A DNA stretch of 64,000 bases from Phycisphaerae bacterium (GTDB taxonomy: Bacteria; Planctomycetota; Phycisphaerae; Sedimentisphaerales; Anaerobacaceae): positions 1 to 64,000 of the forward strand of contig JAUWAY010000001.1 of NCBI GenBank assembly GCA_030601845.1, read 5' to 3'. The translations under genes and the position numbers were made by a program. Positions 1,121 through 42,340 of the stretch are shown here, one piece after another (within the stretch, counting starts at the first letter, position 1; the number at the start of each line of letters is the position of its first letter). Under the pieces are notes generated by a model. That model had not been told where the DNA came from and did not search any database. It saw only the letters and a list, made by a program, of their open reading frames with translations.

Positions 1121-1765
1121 TCACGGAACTTGTGGCTTGATTGCTGTTTGTTCTTTGAATACTCTGCCGGAGAGGTAATCGGTAAAGGTTACCCTGACGG
1201 TTAACGGTTCTTCGACATCTTCGATTTTGTCTGCTACGTCGAAGACCAATCTGTAATTGATGGTTAAAAACGTAGCAAACCAGTTTTTTTTCAGCTCGTC
1301 TGCGTCAACGTGCCACTGAGCAAGCAGTGCCTCGCCGTCTTTTCTGTTCAAGTCCCAGAGCTGAACATCCACATCGCCGGTCGCCTTTATTATGTCACCC
1401 TCTTTATCGATGGGCTGGATGTAAACAATCAGTTTTTCTTTTTTGCCATCTTTGTCTTTGTCGTAAAGATTAGTGTATTTGGTAATCTTGATTCTCTGGA
1501 GCCGATAGAGACTTTCGAGCTTGACCTCATCAGATACGCCGGCCAGGGCCTTTACTTGTTTTTTTAGCTGTTTGTTTTCTGTTTCGGACCGTTCGATTTG
1601 GTTTTTTAGCCGGGTTTCTTCCTGCCTCAAGGTGCTGATTTCTTCTGCCAATGTCGCTCTGCTGTTGGCGTTTTCACAGCCCGCGGCAAAGGCGAACAGG
1701 CATCCGGCCAGGATAGGGTATAGAGTATAGGGAACAGGGTATAGTTTTAGCTTTTTAATTTTCAA
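1121..1765 (-). CDS. Hypothetical lipoprotein with coiled coil
   Basis: N-terminal hydrophobic segment with lipobox-like AAGC, then a heptad-rich [29 protein letters not shown]. Confidence 0.65.
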
Positions 1766-6742: not shown

Positions 6743-8332
6743 CCGACCTTCGTACCTCGAATTTCATTGCACCACCCGGCTCTTGCTGCAGCAATGCTGG
6801 CGGTGCTGATCTTGAACCCAGCAAGGCTTTCGCCGGCCAAAACCTTTGTTGTCTCAGCCCCCTCGGCCGTCCAGGACGTTACTCTTCGCGACCGCGAATT
6901 CGGACAGTGGAACTTCGGCGGCGGTCATCTGCTCGAAGTCGGATTTATGCCCGGACTATACGAACTGCACCACGGTGTCAGCCTGATTCGTTTCAATCTC
7001 TCACAACTGCCATGCAAGAAGGTCAGCTCCGCAAAACTGCGGCTATACAAACCCAAATGCTATATCCAGATGATACCGGTGAAGGTCAGCGCTTACGCAG
7101 TCAGCAATGCCAATTTCGAATGGACGGAGGGCTCATCACTGTGCGCCGAAGAATACTCGGCAAGTACCTGGAAATGCAGAGGCAGCGGCCAGCCGTGGGC
7201 AGGTTCCGAAGGCTGCTCCAAGGCGCGTGTCGATTACACGCTACCGGCCCTGGATACGCAGATCGCTCCAAGCGATTGCGGCCGGTGGTTGGAATTTACC
7301 ATACCACCCAGTCTCATCCAGAGCTGGCTGGACGACCCTGATAACAATGCCGGGTTACATATAAAGGCCAGTGACGATGCGCAACTCGGTGAGCATGCAT
7401 TCTTTTACTCGAGTGAGCACCACTCGGGCAAGGGACCACAATTAGTCATCGATGGAACAGCCGGTGCCCCGGCCTCGCCAGTGAACAAAAGGCCCTTCAA
7501 TCCGAGATACGTGTTTCCCCCGGCAGACGATGCGTTCGAAAGATGGCTCAATGAAGCGGACAACCGCTATACCGGCTGGGCCAAAAACCCCCAGATGAAT
7601 ATGAGCCGCCGGCAGGCCCTGATGATTTACTACTTCGACGTTACGGTCCGAGGCGAGCTGCTTTGCCCCAGAGTACGAATACCACTTACGCAGAATATGC
7701 TGGAACTCGACGACCTAATTGCACAAGCTGACGCGTCGGCTGTACGGGAAAAGCTCAAAGACGTCGGGAAATATCTTCTCATTTGGGAATACATACGCGA
7801 AACGCATTGGTATGACTCCGGCCCGTTGGCCGACGTCCTCTCCCCATTGCAGATAGGCATACTGTGGGCCAAGCCGGGTTACGGCATCTTCGCCAAAATG
7901 AATGACGGAAGATGGGACCCGCTGACCCCTGAGCAGCTGGAGGAGAACATCCTCAAAACGATCGCGCAAATGACATCAACGTTAAATCTAACCGCCGAGC
8001 AGCTCCAATTCATAGAGCCGATGATTCGCCGCAACGAAACTCGCGAGCATTACTATATCAACAAGCTAAGGCAGAGCCTCGATGAAATCTATCCTTTGAT
8101 AGCTGCGGGAAACGATGGCCCTGAGATGTTCGACTGCGTTAAACGCCTGCATTACAACCATGAACTTTTTCTCTATTACCAGTCAACTTTCAGCATCCCT
8201 CGATGGACTGTATATATGGACCACGCAGACCCTATCGCGTTGGCTCGCGCGTATCAGCGCGTCCGAAGAGAAGAGTACAACCCCCAGAGGACTGGCAGAC
8301 AGATCGAACACGCCAAGCGGTATGGCAGATAA
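6743..8332 (+). CDS. DNRLRE-domain secreted protein
   Basis: N-terminal signal; DVTLRDREFGQWNFGGGHLLEVGF...SLIRFNLSQLPCKKVSSAKLRLYK. Start uncertain; ORF opens at 6689. Confidence 0.75.
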   Translation, partial: PTFVPRISLHHPALAAAMLAVLILNPARLSPAKTFVVSAPSAVQDVTLRDREFGQWNFGGGHLLEVGFMPGLYELHHGVSLIRFNLSQLPCKKVSSAKLRLYKPKCYIQMIPVKVSAYAVSNANFEWTEGSSLCAEEYSASTWKCRGSGQPWAGSEGCSKARVDYTLPALDTQIAPSDCGRWLEFTIPPSLIQSWLDDPDNNAGLHIKASDDAQLGEHAFFYSSEHHSGKGPQLVIDGTAGAPASPVNKRPFNPRYVFPPADDAFERWLNEADNRYTGWAKNPQMNMSRRQALMIYYFDVTVRGELLCPRVRIPLTQNMLELDDLIAQADASAVREKLKDVGKYLLIWEYIRETHWYDSGPLADVLSPLQIGILWAKPGYGIFAKMNDGRWDPLTPEQLEENILKTIAQMTSTLNLTAEQLQFIEPMIRRNETREHYYINKLRQSLDEIYPLIAAGNDGPEMFDCVKRLHYNHELFLYYQSTFSIPRWTVYMDHADPIALARAYQRVRREEYNPQRTGRQIEHAKRYGR

Positions 8333-8416
8333 GCTGAAAACTTAAAGCTGAAAACTAAAAACCATAGCATAAAGCCAAATAAACTATTTCAATTTCATGA
8401 AGACAAGGTAATTATT

Positions 8417-24193: not shown

Positions 24194-24264
24194 TAAATAG
24201 GTAAAATGCATAAAAGAGCTTTGGGTTTGATTGTCCATTATATATAGATTAGGAGGCATTATCC

Positions 24265-25332
24265 ATGAAGTCGAAAATCAGAAATCAGAAATCAGATGTC
24301 AGATGTCAGAAGTCAAATTCTGTCCTCTGTCTCCTGTCTTATGTCCTTTGCACCGTGTGCCTGAGTGTTGTGCTCTTTTCGGGCTGTGGTAGTGATGAAG
24401 ATGGAGATGGAGGTGTGAAGGTATTAAAGCTGGCTCACGGCCTGGATACAACCCATCCGGTGCACAAGGCGATGGTGTTTATGGCAGAAAAAGTCAAGGA
24501 AAAATCCGGCGGCAGATTGCGGGTCGATATTTATCCCAGTGAACAGTTAGGCAATGAGCGCGAGTGCATCGAGCAATTGCAATTAGGCGGCCTGGACATG
24601 ACTAAAACCTCCTCGTCGCCGCTGGAAAGCTTCGTTCCAATAATGAAGGTTCTCGCCCTTCCTTATCTTTTCAGGGATTCCGACCATTACTGGAAGACAC
24701 TGCTGGGGCCCACAGGTAAAGAGTTGCTCGCCGCCGGCATGCCGGTAGGTCTGAAAGGTCTATGTTTTTATGATGCCGGCGCTCGCAGTTTCTACACCAC
24801 CGACCGGCTTGTCAAAACTCCCGCCGACTTAAAGGGTATGAAAATCCGCGTTCAGCAGAGCCCTATGGCCATCCAGATGATTAAGGCAATGGGGGCTTCA
24901 GCAACGCCTATTGCCTGGGGCGAACTTTATACCTCGCTGCAGCAGGGAGTAGTGGACGGCGCCGAAAATAATCCACCCAGTTTTTACACTTCGATGCACT
25001 ACGAGATTTGTAAATACTACATACTTGATGAGCACACCCGTCCGCCGGATGTGCTGCTGATAAGCGTATCGATATGGAACAAGCTCTCGCCGGAATTCCA
25101 GACCATCCTGCAGGCCGCGGCCGATGAGTCCGTAATCTATCAGCGCAAGCTCTGGGCAGAAATGGTGGATAAGTCCTTAGAGGACGTTCAAAAACCCAGA
25201 GCTAACAGGCCCGGCGTAATAATAATCCGACCGGACAAAAAACCCTTCCGCGACGCCGTACAATCAATGTGGACCGAATATCAAGCCACGGAAATAGGTG
25301 AGCTCGCAAAGAAAATTCAGGCAGATAAATGA
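24265..25332 (+). CDS. dctP: TRAP transporter substrate-binding protein (DctP family)
   Basis: LKLAHGLDTTHPVHKAMVFMAEKVKEKSGGRLRVDIYPSEQLGNERECIEQLQLG; GELYTSLQQGVVDGAENN. Confidence 0.95.
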   Translation: MKSKIRNQKSDVRCQKSNSVLCLLSYVLCTVCLSVVLFSGCGSDEDGDGGVKVLKLAHGLDTTHPVHKAMVFMAEKVKEKSGGRLRVDIYPSEQLGNERECIEQLQLGGLDMTKTSSSPLESFVPIMKVLALPYLFRDSDHYWKTLLGPTGKELLAAGMPVGLKGLCFYDAGARSFYTTDRLVKTPADLKGMKIRVQQSPMAIQMIKAMGASATPIAWGELYTSLQQGVVDGAENNPPSFYTSMHYEICKYYILDEHTRPPDVLLISVSIWNKLSPEFQTILQAAADESVIYQRKLWAEMVDKSLEDVQKPRANRPGVIIIRPDKKPFRDAVQSMWTEYQATEIGELAKKIQADK

Positions 25333-31482: not shown

Positions 31483-32712
31483 ATGAGTCAGGAATTATTA
31501 AGAATTGTGGACAACCTTGCACGGGATAAGAATATCGACAGGGAGTCTATATTTGTCGATTTGGAAGAAGCTATGATTTCGGCGGTCAGAAAGCATTTTG
31601 ACGAGCCGGACAGCGAAATAACCGTACATATCGACCGCACCACCGGCGAGATCACCGCTACCAAAGACGGCGTGCAAATCGATATAAAACAGCTTGGCCG
31701 AATCCCTGCACAGACGGCCAAGCAGGTGATGATACAGAAGATAAAGGCCGACGAAAGAGATAGTATCTATGCCGAGTTCATCCAGAGAAAAGGCCAGATC
31801 GTAAGCGGCTCGGTCGTGCGATACGAAAGCGGAACTCTAATTGTTGATTTGAACCATCGAACCGAAGCCTTTATGCCAAAAACCGAACAGATAATGGGCC
31901 AGACCCATCGACCGGGCGAGAGAATTCGATGCCTGATTCTTGATGTCAAAGAAGCTGCAAATCAGGTCAAGATTATCCTCTCCCGAACGCATCCTGATTT
32001 TATCCGCAAGCTGTTCGAGCTGGAGGTGCCGGAAATTATGGAAAATATTATCGAAATACAGGCGATGGCACGAGAAGCCGGCTACCGTACCAAGGTTGCG
32101 GTTGCTTCGCTTGATGACAAGGTTGACCCTGTCGGGGCGTGCGTCGGTGTCAGAGGCAGCAGAATAAAGAACGTAGTTGATGAACTCGGCGGCGAAAAAA
32201 TAGATATTGTACGCTGGAACGATTCCTCGCAAGTGCTTATCGCAAATGCTTTGATGCCGGCAAAGGTAAGTGAAATTGCTCTTTGCTTTGAACTGGGAAG
32301 GGCGACCGTGGTAGTAGATGAGGACCAGCTTAGCCTGGCTATCGGCAAACACGGCCAGAACGTTCGGCTGGCTGCGAGACTGACCCGCTGGGATATCGAT
32401 ATACTAACACCTGACGAATACAATGAAGGCATTGAATTACTGACAAGCTGCATCAAGAGCATAGAAGCTGCTGATGATACGGTGATTGACAGGCTGATAG
32501 CACTGGGTGTTATATCCGTTTTGGATCTGGAGGATGTAGGAACCGAACCTCTGATTAACGAGCTGAACATCGACGCCGAGCTGGCTGAAAAATTGGTTGC
32601 GAAAGCAATCGAAGATGCGAAGCTCATGGCGGCTGAGTCGAAAAAGAACCAGGCGGAAAACCTGCTGCAACAGGAAGAAAAAATAGAGGATACCCAAAAA
32701 CGTGAAGCGTGA
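31483..32712 (+). CDS. nusA: Transcription termination/antitermination factor NusA
   Basis: MSQELLRIVDNLARDKNIDRESIFVDLEEAMISAVRK; GACVGVRGSRIKNVVDELGGEKIDIVRW. Confidence 0.97.
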   Translation: MSQELLRIVDNLARDKNIDRESIFVDLEEAMISAVRKHFDEPDSEITVHIDRTTGEITATKDGVQIDIKQLGRIPAQTAKQVMIQKIKADERDSIYAEFIQRKGQIVSGSVVRYESGTLIVDLNHRTEAFMPKTEQIMGQTHRPGERIRCLILDVKEAANQVKIILSRTHPDFIRKLFELEVPEIMENIIEIQAMAREAGYRTKVAVASLDDKVDPVGACVGVRGSRIKNVVDELGGEKIDIVRWNDSSQVLIANALMPAKVSEIALCFELGRATVVVDEDQLSLAIGKHGQNVRLAARLTRWDIDILTPDEYNEGIELLTSCIKSIEAADDTVIDRLIALGVISVLDLEDVGTEPLINELNIDAELAEKLVAKAIEDAKLMAAESKKNQAENLLQQEEKIEDTQKREA

Positions 32713-32713
32713 A

Positions 32714-32775
32714 CCCCGTTAGAAATTCCGGAAGGAATAAGAATGCGGGATGGAAGGTGAAAATTTCTAACGGGG
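32714..32775. repeat. CCCCGTTAGAA...TTCTAACGGGG palindromic element
   Basis: ccccgttagaaattccggaaggaataagaatgcgggatggaaggtgaaaatttctaacgggg, directly after the nusA stop. Confidence 0.85.
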
Positions 32776-37488: not shown

Positions 37489-39414
37489 TTAGTTGGTGCC
37501 ACTTGGATTAAGATACTCGAATTCGAAGAAGAAGCCGTCCGGCCTGCTAACGCCGTAAAAAGTGGACAGGCCAAAATACTTACGCACAATATCGTAATCG
37601 GGCAAAAGGTCGAATTTAAACAAATCCAGTCCTATTTGCGAAAACATCAAAGCCGGATTGGGGACCATCGGGATGGTCGCCCCGCCCGTCTTGATGGGCG
37701 GGGTGGTGCTTTCCTTCATCATCCACCATAAGAGTTCGCCGGAGGCCGCGTTGTCTTGCAAACCGGCCATTCCAACAACCGAAGGCAGGGACAATCTGGC
37801 AGAGGTGAACCACTTCGCAGAATCCACTGATACGGACTCGGCACTGCTCAATCTGCGAATGGCCCGCTCAACACCTGCTTCGGCCCCTAAAATCAGATGG
37901 GTGTCGGTGATGGTAAATGCTACCTTAGGCATTTGTGGAGCGATTGGCCCGCCCAGCCCCTCGGAGGGGCGGGGCCCGGCAGGGGCCTGCCCCGTTAGAA
38001 GTCCGTACTGACGATGTGGTCGCTGCTTGCAACTTTCTTCTAACGGGGCCTGCATCGGTGCCCTCCCACCAGGCATAAAAGGCGGCATCAGGGCCAGGAG
38101 GTTAACCACATAAATCGTGTGGCCTAAAAGTTCACGCCTGGCTTCAGGGTTGTTCTGGGTCATCATCCCGTGCAGAAGTGACAGCGATTTTTCAAGAGCG
38201 ATATGGTTACTTGCCGCCAGAGCAACAAGAGTCTCTGTCGGTGTCGAATTTTTGGAGAACGGCTTGTTTATACTCTGGGCGATCACAATCTGTGAGCCAA
38301 GATAGTCGATAATGTCGTCTTTTATTTTCAGCCCGGGCTTGTCCGGCGAATCAGACGTTGGCAGCGGCATATACATCCAGGCAGCGGCCTGAGGCGAGAA
38401 GCTGGTGAGGATATTGCCAAGTGTGCTATAGGCCTTTCCAATATTGAGATTTAGAAACGATACCGAATAGGCCGAGGCGGGAATAAATCGAGGGGCTCTG
38501 AAACCGCCCGACTCAACCTCCAGCATCTTCAGGATACCTTTTTTCCCACCTTCGACTTTCAGGAGTGCTTTGCCGCTACAGGAGCTGCCGGCTCTGCCGA
38601 GGCCAACCGAGAAGCCGAAAGCGGCAGCATTATCAAGACCGAGATTGGCTATTGTGCTTTGCGCTTTGCCGGAGGAATCCTCGGCGATGCCCATCTTGAT
38701 GATTTGTTTTATATTGACATAGAAATCAATGTCGTGATAAGGCCCAACTGCTGCAATGGTGGAGGTATAATCGGCGTCGTCGGCCAGCGTCGGGCTGCTG
38801 GCACCTTTGATATGGGCGATGACAAATTTCAGAACGTCCAGATTTGCGGACACTATCAGGCAGTCATCGATAAAACAATAGCTCAGAGGTTCGGAAGACT
38901 TCCGGATTATCGTTATGATACTGACGCCGCGGTAATCCTCGGTCTTTCGGTGCGAGCCGTCTTCAATCGCCTTTTCGACTTGTTTTTCCACCGCTTCTTT
39001 GATTTTTGCGGTGTTTTCGCCCCACTCGGTTATGAACAAAAACGGCGGCTCGTTGGCTTCTTTCGTCTGCTCGTTGAGCACTAAAGCAACGGCTACTCTA
39101 CCCTCGGGCAATATATCTGCACTGATAACTGCCTCAGCGATTTCGTTATCCAGTTTCCGCACTTTTTCTTGCCGTTTGGTTTTGAAGTCCTCTACAAAGG
39201 CAGCCATCGCCGGGTCTTTGTAGAGTTTGTAAACACTGGTTTTTTCAAACTGCCCTCTGAGCTGACTGAAATTGTCAATATCGGTCAGCAGAACCGTTTC
39301 AGGCGGCAGCAACCTGGCTGTCTTGGGCAGGACCCCGGCCTGTGCAGAGGCCAAGAAGCTAAAAGCTAAAAGCGCAAAACTAAAAACTTTCGCTTTTTTC
39401 GGGAAATGTTTCAT
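37489..39414 (-). CDS. Exported hypothetical protein (DUF3352-like)
   Basis: 641 aa; signal MKHFPKKAKVFSFALLAFSFLASAQAG; LLPPETVLLTDIDNFSQLRGQFEKTSVYKLYKDPAMAAF. Confidence 0.65.
   Translation of the reverse strand: MKHFPKKAKVFSFALLAFSFLASAQAGVLPKTARLLPPETVLLTDIDNFSQLRGQFEKTSVYKLYKDPAMAAFVEDFKTKRQEKVRKLDNEIAEAVISADILPEGRVAVALVLNEQTKEANEPPFLFITEWGENTAKIKEAVEKQVEKAIEDGSHRKTEDYRGVSIITIIRKSSEPLSYCFIDDCLIVSANLDVLKFVIAHIKGASSPTLADDADYTSTIAAVGPYHDIDFYVNIKQIIKMGIAEDSSGKAQSTIANLGLDNAAAFGFSVGLGRAGSSCSGKALLKVEGGKKGILKMLEVESGGFRAPRFIPASAYSVSFLNLNIGKAYSTLGNILTSFSPQAAAWMYMPLPTSDSPDKPGLKIKDDIIDYLGSQIVIAQSINKPFSKNSTPTETLVALAASNHIALEKSLSLLHGMMTQNNPEARRELLGHTIYVVNLLALMPPFMPGGRAPMQAPLEESCKQRPHRQYGLLTGQAPAGPRPSEGLGGPIAPQMPKVAFTITDTHLILGAEAGVERAIRRLSSAESVSVDSAKWFTSARLSLPSVVGMAGLQDNAASGELLWWMMKESTTPPIKTGGATIPMVPNPALMFSQIGLDLFKFDLLPDYDIVRKYFGLSTFYGVSRPDGFFFEFEYLNPSGTN
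37990..38048. repeat. CCCCGTTAGAA...TTCTAACGGGG palindromic element inside a CDS
   Basis: ccccgttagaagtccgtactgacgatgtggtcgctgcttgcaactttcttctaacgggg, read through by the 37489..39414 ORF. Confidence 0.85.
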
Positions 39415-39476
39415 TTTCAGACCTTTCGTTAATTTTAGTTGTTAGTTACTAAATACGACTCACTAATCATTTTACG

Positions 39477-40547
39477 CTAATCACTTTTTTTGAGGAATTT
39501 TGGCTTTTGCTTATTGCGTCTTCTGTCCGGCTGAAGGTATTTATAGCCGGTGTTCGGATTGTCCTTATCATAGGCAAAGGCCTCACGATTTTCTATGAAG
39601 TGCTTTACATAATTGATTGGTATGGCAAAGCCCAGCCCGCCGTAGAATATATATCCCATATTTATAACGCCGATTACCTCGCCGGCCAGATTAAACAAAG
39701 GACCGCCGGAATTGCCGGGATTGATATCGGCATTAGTCTGGATATACAAAAGACCTTCGAAGGCCCTGTTTCTCGTGCTGATGACGCCGTCGGTAACGGT
39801 TCGCTCCAGCCCTAAGGGATTGCCGATTGCGAAGACCTCCTCGCCTACCCTGATGCTGTCGATGTCACCCAGGTATATATGTTTGACCTTTGTATCACCC
39901 AGGTCTTCGACCCTCAATAGTGCCAGGTCAACAAAAGGATTGATGGCTTCGATTTTGACCTTTTTGAATTCCTTTTTCTCAAAGCCGTTCTTCGCCTGCT
40001 GGAACATAGTAACTTCTATCTTGGTTTCTTTTTCTATGACGTGATAATTGGTTATAAGGTAACCATCTTCGTTGATAAAGAACCCTGAGCCCATCCCCGC
40101 CGGGCTTGATACCTTTAGAACCGCCTCGGAGAACGCATCCACGCATCTTTCGATAGTCGTTTTTTTCAGCTCAGCGGTATGATACAACTGCCCCGCCGGT
40201 CGCGGTTTATCGGTTTCCACACCCAGATCATTTACGTCATTGACGTCGGCACCCTCGGCCTCGAGCGATTTATCCCCGCTGTATTCATATTCGAGTATAT
40301 TTTCCTTCGGGATTGTCAGAACCGTTATGCCAATATCCACTATTAGCTGTGTCTCTTTTTCCGCGAGGATATCGCCGGTTAGGGTTTGCCCTTCTTTTAG
40401 AACAATCGTATCAGCCCAACAAAGTGCACAAGCACAGAAGAGCACAAGTGCACATACTAAAGCACATACTTGAGTCTTGGGTCTTGTGTCTTGGGTCTTG
40501 GGTCTTGGGTCTTTCTGCATAATCACTCCCGAATCAACATTTAGCAT
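39477..40547 (-). CDS. HtrA/DegP-like trypsin-family serine protease (no obvious PDZ)
   Basis: GSGFFINEDGYLITNYHVIE (His), VDLALLRVE (Asp), NPGNSGGPLFNLAGEVIGV (Ser). Confidence 0.9.
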   Translation of the reverse strand: MLNVDSGVIMQKDPRPKTQDTRPKTQVCALVCALVLFCACALCWADTIVLKEGQTLTGDILAEKETQLIVDIGITVLTIPKENILEYEYSGDKSLEAEGADVNDVNDLGVETDKPRPAGQLYHTAELKKTTIERCVDAFSEAVLKVSSPAGMGSGFFINEDGYLITNYHVIEKETKIEVTMFQQAKNGFEKKEFKKVKIEAINPFVDLALLRVEDLGDTKVKHIYLGDIDSIRVGEEVFAIGNPLGLERTVTDGVISTRNRAFEGLLYIQTNADINPGNSGGPLFNLAGEVIGVINMGYIFYGGLGFAIPINYVKHFIENREAFAYDKDNPNTGYKYLQPDRRRNKQKPKFLKKSD

Positions 40548-40603
40548 ATAGCATTTGCCGTATTTGCCATTATAGCGCTTATCTGTCTTTAACGCAAATG
40601 GAA

Positions 40604-40828: not shown

Positions 40829-41875
40829 CTAAAATTCTCTGCGTTTTCTCAGCAGCACTACCCCGCCTAATCCTAACAACAAAACCGTCCCCGGCTCCGG
40901 AACCCATAAGACCGCATGGTAATCGCCTGCATTCGTCTTGGCGCATCCGACGATGCGTCCTGCTGAATCGATATCGTAGGCCCATGAGTAAATATATCCT
41001 TCTGGCGGCAGGAGACGGTGCAGGTCTACGAAACTCTCGGCTGTGCCCTCCCATAGTAAAGCGTGGTCTTTGTTACCAGTGGAGCCACCTCGCCCATAGC
41101 CTACCTGCTGACCCCCACAGATACCGAAGGCGCTCGAGCGTGTGAATCCGTCGGGGTGAAGGTCAATGACACTTTCGGCTGTACCCGACCATAGTAAAGC
41201 ATGGTAATTGCCCTCGCCTACCTGCTGACCGCCACAAATGTCGTGCGCCCGCGACGAAGTCAAACCAGTGGGATTAAGGTCAACGGCACTTTCCGCCGTG
41301 CCATACCACAATAAAGCGTGCCCATCTCCATCGCCTACCTGCTGACCACCCCAGACACCGCGGGCAAGCGAGCTTGTGAAACCACTGGGGTTGAGGTCAA
41401 CGACACTTTCAGCCGTCCCTGACCATAGTAAGGCGTGGTATTCACCACCAGTGATGCTACCGTGCCCGTAACCTACCTGCTGACCGCCTGAGATACCACG
41501 GGCCTCCGAGTACGTGAACCCACTGGGGTTGAGGTCAACGACACTTTCGGCCGTACCCGACCACAGTAAAGCGTGGCCGTTCCCCCAGCCTACCTGCTGA
41601 CCGTCCCAGATATCATAGGCCACAGAGTAGTCGAATCCGCTTGGGTGTAGGTCAACGCAACTTTCAGCCGTGCCCGACCACAGTAAAGCGTGGGAATCCC
41701 GCGGATCAGTATTCCAACCCCCGCCTACCTGCTGACCGCCTGATACACCTCGGGCTTCCGACTCATCGAACCCGCTGGGGTGTAAGATAACCGCTTCATA
41801 GACTACGGCCTGCGCAGCAGTTGCCGCTGTTAATAAAACAAACACCAAAACAGAAATCCTTGCTAATTTGTCCAT
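40829..41875 (-). CDS. PEP-CTERM sorted extracellular protein with HAF-type tandem repeats
   Basis: Repeats of (A/S)xGxxxGGQQVGxGxxHALLWSGTAESVVDLNPSGFTxS; C-term VPEPGTVLLLGLGGVVLLRKRREF. Confidence 0.9.
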   Translation of the reverse strand: MDKLARISVLVFVLLTAATAAQAVVYEAVILHPSGFDESEARGVSGGQQVGGGWNTDPRDSHALLWSGTAESCVDLHPSGFDYSVAYDIWDGQQVGWGNGHALLWSGTAESVVDLNPSGFTYSEARGISGGQQVGYGHGSITGGEYHALLWSGTAESVVDLNPSGFTSSLARGVWGGQQVGDGDGHALLWYGTAESAVDLNPTGLTSSRAHDICGGQQVGEGNYHALLWSGTAESVIDLHPDGFTRSSAFGICGGQQVGYGRGGSTGNKDHALLWEGTAESFVDLHRLLPPEGYIYSWAYDIDSAGRIVGCAKTNAGDYHAVLWVPEPGTVLLLGLGGVVLLRKRREF

Positions 41876-41930
41876 AATCGAAACTCCTCCTGAAAAAACT
41901 GCTGTTTTGTTACATTTGATTCGATGACTT

Positions 41931-42010
41931 GTCATTGCGAGGCCTGAAAGGCCGTGGCAATCTCTGGCCTTCGAACGATAGAGATTGCTTCGCTCCGCTC
42001 GCAATGACAA
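41931..42010. repeat. Common dispersed palindromic repeat (cattgcgagg...caatctc...gagattgcttcgctccgctcgcaatgaca)
   Basis: tgtcattgcgaggcctgaaaggccgtggcaatctctggccttcgaacgatagagattgcttcgctccgctcgcaatgaca. Confidence 0.8.
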
Positions 42011-42340
42011 CCATAAAATGCCCTTTCTATGGCCTGATAATGCCAAAAACCAGGCGCAAAAACCCTGAAATAGGGCTCATCTCCAAATCCGTTTGGTTAA
42101 ATTCAGGCGGGAAAGCTCGAAATAAAATCAGGCTACCGGCCTCCTCCTTCAAATTATAAGACTACACACAATGCTTAAAAAAGTCAAGAAATTTCTCAAA
42201 TTTTCCCGCTTTGCGCCGGCGGTGGAGAATTTTGTTGCAAAACCCCCCTAATCATTGACAATTGAAGAAAACATTAAAAATAATCAATAAAAAATAATAT
42301 TGTCATTCCTGCACAAGCAGGAACAATAATCAATTGAGAA

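Follow-up and report, generated by a model that had tools for sequence, protein, structure and literature searches.

Two genes on the minus strand, encoding an HtrA-like serine protease and a predicted exported DUF3352 protein, lie side by side (37489..40547) in the window, a 64,000 nt stretch (C24:1-64000) of a draft Phycisphaerae MAG (1.86 Mb, 31 contigs, ~75% complete). They form a conserved pair, adjacent in many Planctomycetota genomes and at several Verrucomicrobia loci. The protease open-reading frame as listed (39477..40547) has a translation beginning MQKDPRPKTQDTRPKTQVCALVCALVLFCACALCWADTIV, but the ATG at 40520, the sole well-placed start, is the likelier one. Its Trypsin_2 domain scored 109.7 bits against a curated Pfam cut-off of 27.6 and the Pfam domain scan found no PDZ match, so "HtrA-like" here covers the protease domain only. 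By eye, a sequence resembling the promoter of the protease (Table 1) is also found upstream of several orthologs. An open-reading frame at 40829..42046 carries ~117-bp internal tandem repeats and a PEP-CTERM-like VPEPGTVLLLGLGGVVLLRKR tail, with no Pfam match.

Table 1 Features of the window and repeat-built N-termini in related genomes.
Feature	Position	Strand	Evidence
Lipoprotein signal, ~four degenerate ACCCTAT heptamers	1712..1740	-	No exact copy elsewhere
dctP (TRAP solute receptor; lipoprotein-type signal, Cys at residue 41)	24265..25332	+	DctP E=6.3e-83; SD AGGAGG at 24251-24256
GAAATCA/GATGTCA heptamer array, dctP n-region KIRNQKSDVRCQKS	24275..24315	+	Spacer matches, array scan
TCTGTCC-type heptamers, first half of dctP hydrophobic core (SVLCLLSYVL)	24319..24347	+	Spacer matches
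DUF3352 exported protein (predicted), adjoins protease in many related genomes	37489..39414	-	Core word is a weak repeat match
Palindromic element CCCGTTAGAAG...CTTCTAACGGG inside DUF3352, 57 nt	37991..38047		GCCTGC direct repeats at 37985-37990 and 38048-38053
HtrA-like serine protease (Trypsin_2), from likelier start	39477..40520 (listed ORF to 40547)	-	Trypsin_2 E=2.7e-31; SD GGGAG 5 nt before ATG 40520
Hydrophobic core and cleavage region, VCALVCALVLFCACALCWA followed by D	40413..40469	-	Conserved in orthologs
GACNCAA heptamer array, period 7, residues 3-17 (KDPRPKTQDTRPKTQ), signal peptide n-region	40469..40513	-	Tandem Repeats Finder
Shine-Dalgarno GGGAG, upstream of ATG 40520	40526..40530	-	
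Sigma-70-like promoter TTGCGT-17-TATAAT	40569..40597	-	Read by eye
DUF6807	G007 C236		Single candidate start before repeats; SD -8.2
Cytochrome c554	G016 C42		Single ATG
Outer membrane efflux protein (lipoprotein)	G022 C105		GTG start; lipobox-like VGC

Read from ATG 40520, residues 2-17 of the protease are QKDPRPKTQDTRPKTQ, and their coding sequence lies almost entirely within a 45-nt GACNCAA array (6.4 copies, 92% matches). The initial annotation proposed that the signal of this protease was built from words of spacer DNA, and for residues 3-17 this is true, as the array also occurs in spacers genome-wide: a GACNCAA-type 16-base pattern (≤1 mismatch) has 138 matches in the genome versus 1 for its reversed control, and 14 distant spacer stretches match the array itself, the best at 69.9 bits. 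The complete signal, with a basic n-region, a hydrophobic h-region and a small-residue cleavage site, is predicted to be Sec-type, a pattern also seen in the orthologs. These (48-78% identity) align from approximately residue 24 onward and possess CALVLL/LVLFC-type cores and C-[WFPL]-A-D ahead of a conserved mature start; their cores end as in the protease (e.g. CALVLLASCVLCPADRIVLKEG, ALVLFCTCALCFADKIVLKEG), with unrelated n-region sequences. Given this conservation of core and cleavage site, the array appears to have lengthened the n-region of a pre-existing signal, and a repeat origin of the core was rejected, as was the 8-mer TGTGCTCT as its source, with just one spacer match. The n-regions of two orthologs hold other repeats, a CCCCGTTAGAAATT element in G003 and a TTCGTTATTC word in G020, which together with the protease suggests that the n-region tolerates repeats.

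The best case of a repeat-built signal, stronger than that of the protease, is dctP, for which the earlier reading was confirmed. Its first 120 nt match 20 distant spacer stretches (best 73.7 bits), and repeats supply the n-region and half of the core. The corresponding spacer unit has two parts, a GAAATCAGAAATCAGATGTCAGATGTCAGAAGTCA-like array of GAAATCA heptamers and then TCTGTCCTCTGTCTCCTGTC, composed of TCTGTCC heptamers; units of this type were located in spacers at C2:52994, C21:47891 and C23:33490, and within called genes at C11:45938 and C26:23111. Only the distal CLSVVLFSGC of the dctP signal resembles the orthologs; their signals, for example MKKVIICCSLVACLSLGTFSGCG and MKKIATIVCVLFICLSVFGIFGCG in G001 and G011, have about half its length. 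The lipoprotein at 1121..1765 probably belongs with these cases: it has degenerate heptamers in its n-region, and its orthologs in G009 and G007 have signals of purine-rich, then pyrimidine-rich words, but its exact 15-mer had no other match in 1.5 Mb at 1 mismatch. The fourth proposed case, the DUF3352 protein, proved weak. With 1 mismatch allowed, its word AGCTAAAAGCTAAAAG matches spacer DNA at 3 places, and the spacer DNA thought to share it (~8330-8365) is indeed present at 8331..8363, but contains a related word and not an identical one. Across signal-peptide genes, words cover 2.65% of codons 11-20 versus 2.57% for reversed words, so T-rich hydrophobic codons account for the DUF3352 word.

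Genome-wide analysis used 1,497,060 nt of the MAG, assembled contig by contig from stretches. In this 1.5 Mb an autocorrelation scan counted 133 period-7 arrays (89 per Mb), whilst periods 4-6, 13 and 17 gave 0-1 each and periods 8, 9 and 12 gave 4-14. The period is common to many different heptamer families with unrelated sequences, suggesting a process that fixes length and not sequence. The arrays were divided between spacers (93) and called genes (40); arrays of period 10 and 11 (30 and 19), unlike those of period 7, occurred in spacers only, with none in called genes. Ten proteins with coding arrays were scanned and nine had a Pfam match, the families including DNA polymerase III delta2/gamma domains (dnaX), ClpB/Clp_N (ClpB/C), carbamoyltransferase, NQR2/RnfD, class-II tRNA synthetase with a GAD domain, TsaD and cytidylyltransferase. 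The carbamoyltransferase carries a 12-aa insertion, EVRSQKTEDRKE, where 7 relatives have nothing, and the tRNA synthetase insertion shares its position with G009, with different words. In 82% of coding arrays no frame of the sense strand contains a stop, and the encoded peptides are mostly hydrophilic, with a net positive charge in 80%; their "in frame" placement is partly ascertainment, since an out-of-frame insertion would break the called gene. Sampled relatives ranged from 0 period-7 arrays per Mb in the sister genome G001 (none in 200 kb sampled) to 5 in G011, 20 in G027 and 40 in G010.

The distribution of words between gene classes was determined with our own gene calls, for which coding-model starts were reassigned by Shine-Dalgarno (SD) sequence, counting a gene when at least 2 distant spacer stretches matched within its first 120 nt at ≥30 bits. 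Signal peptides were assigned by a crude hydrophobicity rule, which counts some Tat substrates as cytoplasmic. Matches were found in 10 of 252 signal-peptide, 29 of 644 cytoplasmic and 3 of 177 membrane genes. The excess over mature regions anticipated in the initial annotation was present, as signal-peptide genes matched in 10/252 cases at codons 1-40 versus 0/252 at codons 40-80 (p=0.002), where cytoplasmic and membrane genes had 5 and 1, but cytoplasmic genes had an equal N-terminal rate (4.5% versus 4.0%, p=0.86). Pooling all classes, N-termini exceeded codons 40-80 with p=7e-8, and C-termini matched in 12 signal-peptide, 29 cytoplasmic and 5 membrane genes. Spacer words are thus enriched at gene ends generally, without specificity for export signals; simple repeats are enriched near prokaryotic gene ends according to Lin and Kussell, as cited in PMC4692102. 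A modest export bias may still exist: words without an alternative start after them were found in 6/252 signal-peptide (2.4%) versus 9/644 cytoplasmic genes (1.4%, p=0.38). Some of the cytoplasmic N-terminal matches may be misplaced starts. The coding model put the dctP start at 24415, beyond the 3' end of its repeats, an example of how automatic start calling misplaces N-termini in such genomes; redoing the analysis with SD-based starts gave the same overall conclusion. Open segments of basic plus hydrophobic composition were also in excess in spacers (164 versus 71 ± 10 simulated and 93 reversed), an excess we do not rely on, as heptamer arrays explain none of it by the segment measure used and the spacers may include small genes that went unrecognised, raising the count.

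Searching 41 genomes with the two-part unit consensus returned 28 matches in 8 genomes. Outside the source genome, the unit stood at the N-terminus of an open-reading frame >500 aa in three places (G007, G016 and G022; Table 1), where it supplies the n-region together with some or almost all of the hydrophobic stretch, making a nearly complete predicted signal peptide. Orthologs of the G016 cytochrome (~60-68% identity) start with short unrelated signals, e.g. MKKYFFGIFVIATITSVVFGAQ. We take cytochrome c554, outer-membrane efflux proteins and dctP to be of kinds expected outside the cytoplasm, and DUF6807, less certainly, as well. Repeat-built N-termini were also seen in the separately deposited MAGs G003, G007, G009, G016, G020 and G022. 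Named records with orthologs are from Planctomycetota, many labelled Sedimentisphaerales or Phycisphaerae. Judged from these comparisons, repeats can donate parts of predicted export signals, as one outcome of a general invasion of genes. The suggestion that spacer DNA is a source of new export signals therefore holds for individual genes (dctP and single genes in G007, G016 and G022), but as a general rule is too narrow, given the same N-terminal rate in cytoplasmic genes, the similar C-termini and the arrays inside core enzymes. A stronger version, that the purine-rich then pyrimidine-rich unit is a ready-made signal peptide which exported genes of the family have captured repeatedly, driving signal-peptide turnover, is a tentative reading that we regard as somewhat more likely wrong than right; it includes the proposal that the unit, in one orientation, would have no stop in any frame and would read as basic residues followed by hydrophobic ones whichever frame is used.

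That the words are merely hydrophobic codon bias plus T-rich low complexity, unconnected with the spacer repeats, is improbable overall. The near-equal word and reversed-word coverage at codons 11-20 and the DUF3352 word fit this explanation, and for 37489..39414 it stands; it is refuted for the protease and dctP, whose arrays match many distant spacer stretches, and the protease array encodes charged residues, not hydrophobic ones, whilst reversed N-termini of signal-peptide genes matched in 2/252 cases against 10/252 for the real ones. Another explanation, slightly less probable still, is that the arrays are regulatory DNA or RNA (spacer or 5' leader) and remain untranslated, with true starts downstream. 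Most arrays do lie in spacers and some called N-termini are probably misplaced, but neither the protease nor dctP has an ATG between array and hydrophobic core, both have strong SDs before the upstream ATG, the one candidate start of the G007 open-reading frame precedes the repeats, and arrays inside enzymes are necessarily translated if the enzymes are made.

We give an equally small chance to phase variation, whereby gaining or losing one 7-base unit would change the frame and switch the exported protein off, as with the CTCTT repeats of Neisseria opa. The position of the repeat resembles opa (PMC3899988), and in simulation a one- or two-unit change leaves truncated products of 19-39 aa (protease) and 31-45 aa (dctP), whilst three added units restore the frame, so that, going by these simulations, the arrays could in principle act as a frame switch. 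Against this, the array units are imperfect, and similar arrays lie within core enzymes, the loss of which would probably kill the cell. Imperfect repeat units usually slow slippage. Least credible of all, to the point of being very nearly dismissible, is an artefact of MAG assembly or binning: the genome is an incomplete draft, but comparable repeat-built N-termini recur in the separate MAGs listed above and the tRNA synthetase insertion site is common to G009.

The arrays recall several known systems. As with the cyanobacterial STRR and the G-rich heptamers of Xanthomonas and Nostoc (PMC4692102), they are degenerate 7-base tandem repeats, dispersed and mainly intergenic, a likeness of period and dispersal only; those repeats are described as under-represented in coding regions (PMC4692102), whereas here there are many heptamer families, with 40 of the 133 arrays lying in called coding regions and some contributing parts of signal peptides. 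Like the arrays, Rickettsia palindromic elements (RPEs, PMC10969869) are found in frame within genes for proteins, some of them of core metabolism, but RPEs are palindromic and about 150 bp long (PMC10969869), whereas the arrays are tandem repeats and not necessarily palindromes, only some pairing as purine/pyrimidine units. Neisseria opa (PMC3899988) also has, within the coding sequence of a signal peptide, a tandem repeat whose unit length is not a multiple of 3; its repeats are described as a switch, whereas ours are imperfect, of many families and found in all protein classes. Borg tandem repeats (PMC9879509) similarly occupy spacers and open-reading frames, adding repeat peptides, often to exported proteins in Borgs, but their units in open-reading frames are divisible by three, unlike 7. 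In the transmembrane-first emergence of yeast genes (PMC7005711), non-genic DNA that is rich in T is prone to encode hydrophobic segments, useful once translated; there new genes are born, whereas here repeat DNA joins existing exported proteins.

A separate repeat was noted in the same genome, the palindrome CCCGTTAGAAA...TTTCTAACGGG, an element usually of 35-130 nt with 5-7-nt direct repeats on either side and with copies in the window (37991..38047, 32715..32774) and at C3:34443, C10:78255, C14:13131 and other sites. Direct repeats of at least 5 nt flank 53% of 36 element pairs versus 4% in a shuffled-flank null. DUF3352 is one of the genes that contain the element in frame; in IF-2 and a gyrA-like gene it lies close to the start. 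With its inverted termini, direct-repeat flanks and in-frame gene copies, this CCCGTTAG element is nearer to an RPE or MITE than the heptamer arrays are, a likeness in these features. At the nusA-IF-2 junction (32709..32774) the element is preceded by the overlapping GTGA and followed by the IF-2 body, so that the IF-2 N-terminus (MKISNGVKQDTKYKIRD...) comes from the element, as probably do the IF-2 SD and start. At C14:13125-25254, four clustered genes with MNRR-[DE]-FLK Tat-type starts share a 66-nt element, placed in each before the motif, which suggests duplication after insertion of the element.

Taken together, we consider it likely that degenerate period-7 arrays enter genes and survive where the frame is open and the protein tolerant; that the resulting proteins are produced and exported is our inference. 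The arrays, mostly spacer-borne, would arise in or be copied into genes, by slippage or copying, and persist at gene ends, surface loops and signal-peptide n-regions, where extra residues are tolerated. As 7 leaves a remainder of 1 on division by 3, a stop-free array would give the same heptapeptide in all three frames, and this frame tolerance may explain the entry of arrays into genes. A purine-rich then pyrimidine-rich array would encode basic residues followed by hydrophobic ones, the order found in signal peptides. In the protease gene the array would have been added to, or taken the place of, the n-region of a Sec signal already present, raising its net positive charge with core and cleavage site kept, whilst in dctP and some relatives the two-part unit would have replaced the ancestral signal sequence. 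The literature searched held no report of repeat-built signal peptides of this kind in planctomycetes. The same spacer sequences recur as loops in core enzymes and as parts of predicted export signals, and these genomes provide datable examples of repeat DNA remodelling bacterial proteins, with repeat-poor sister genomes at hand for comparison.
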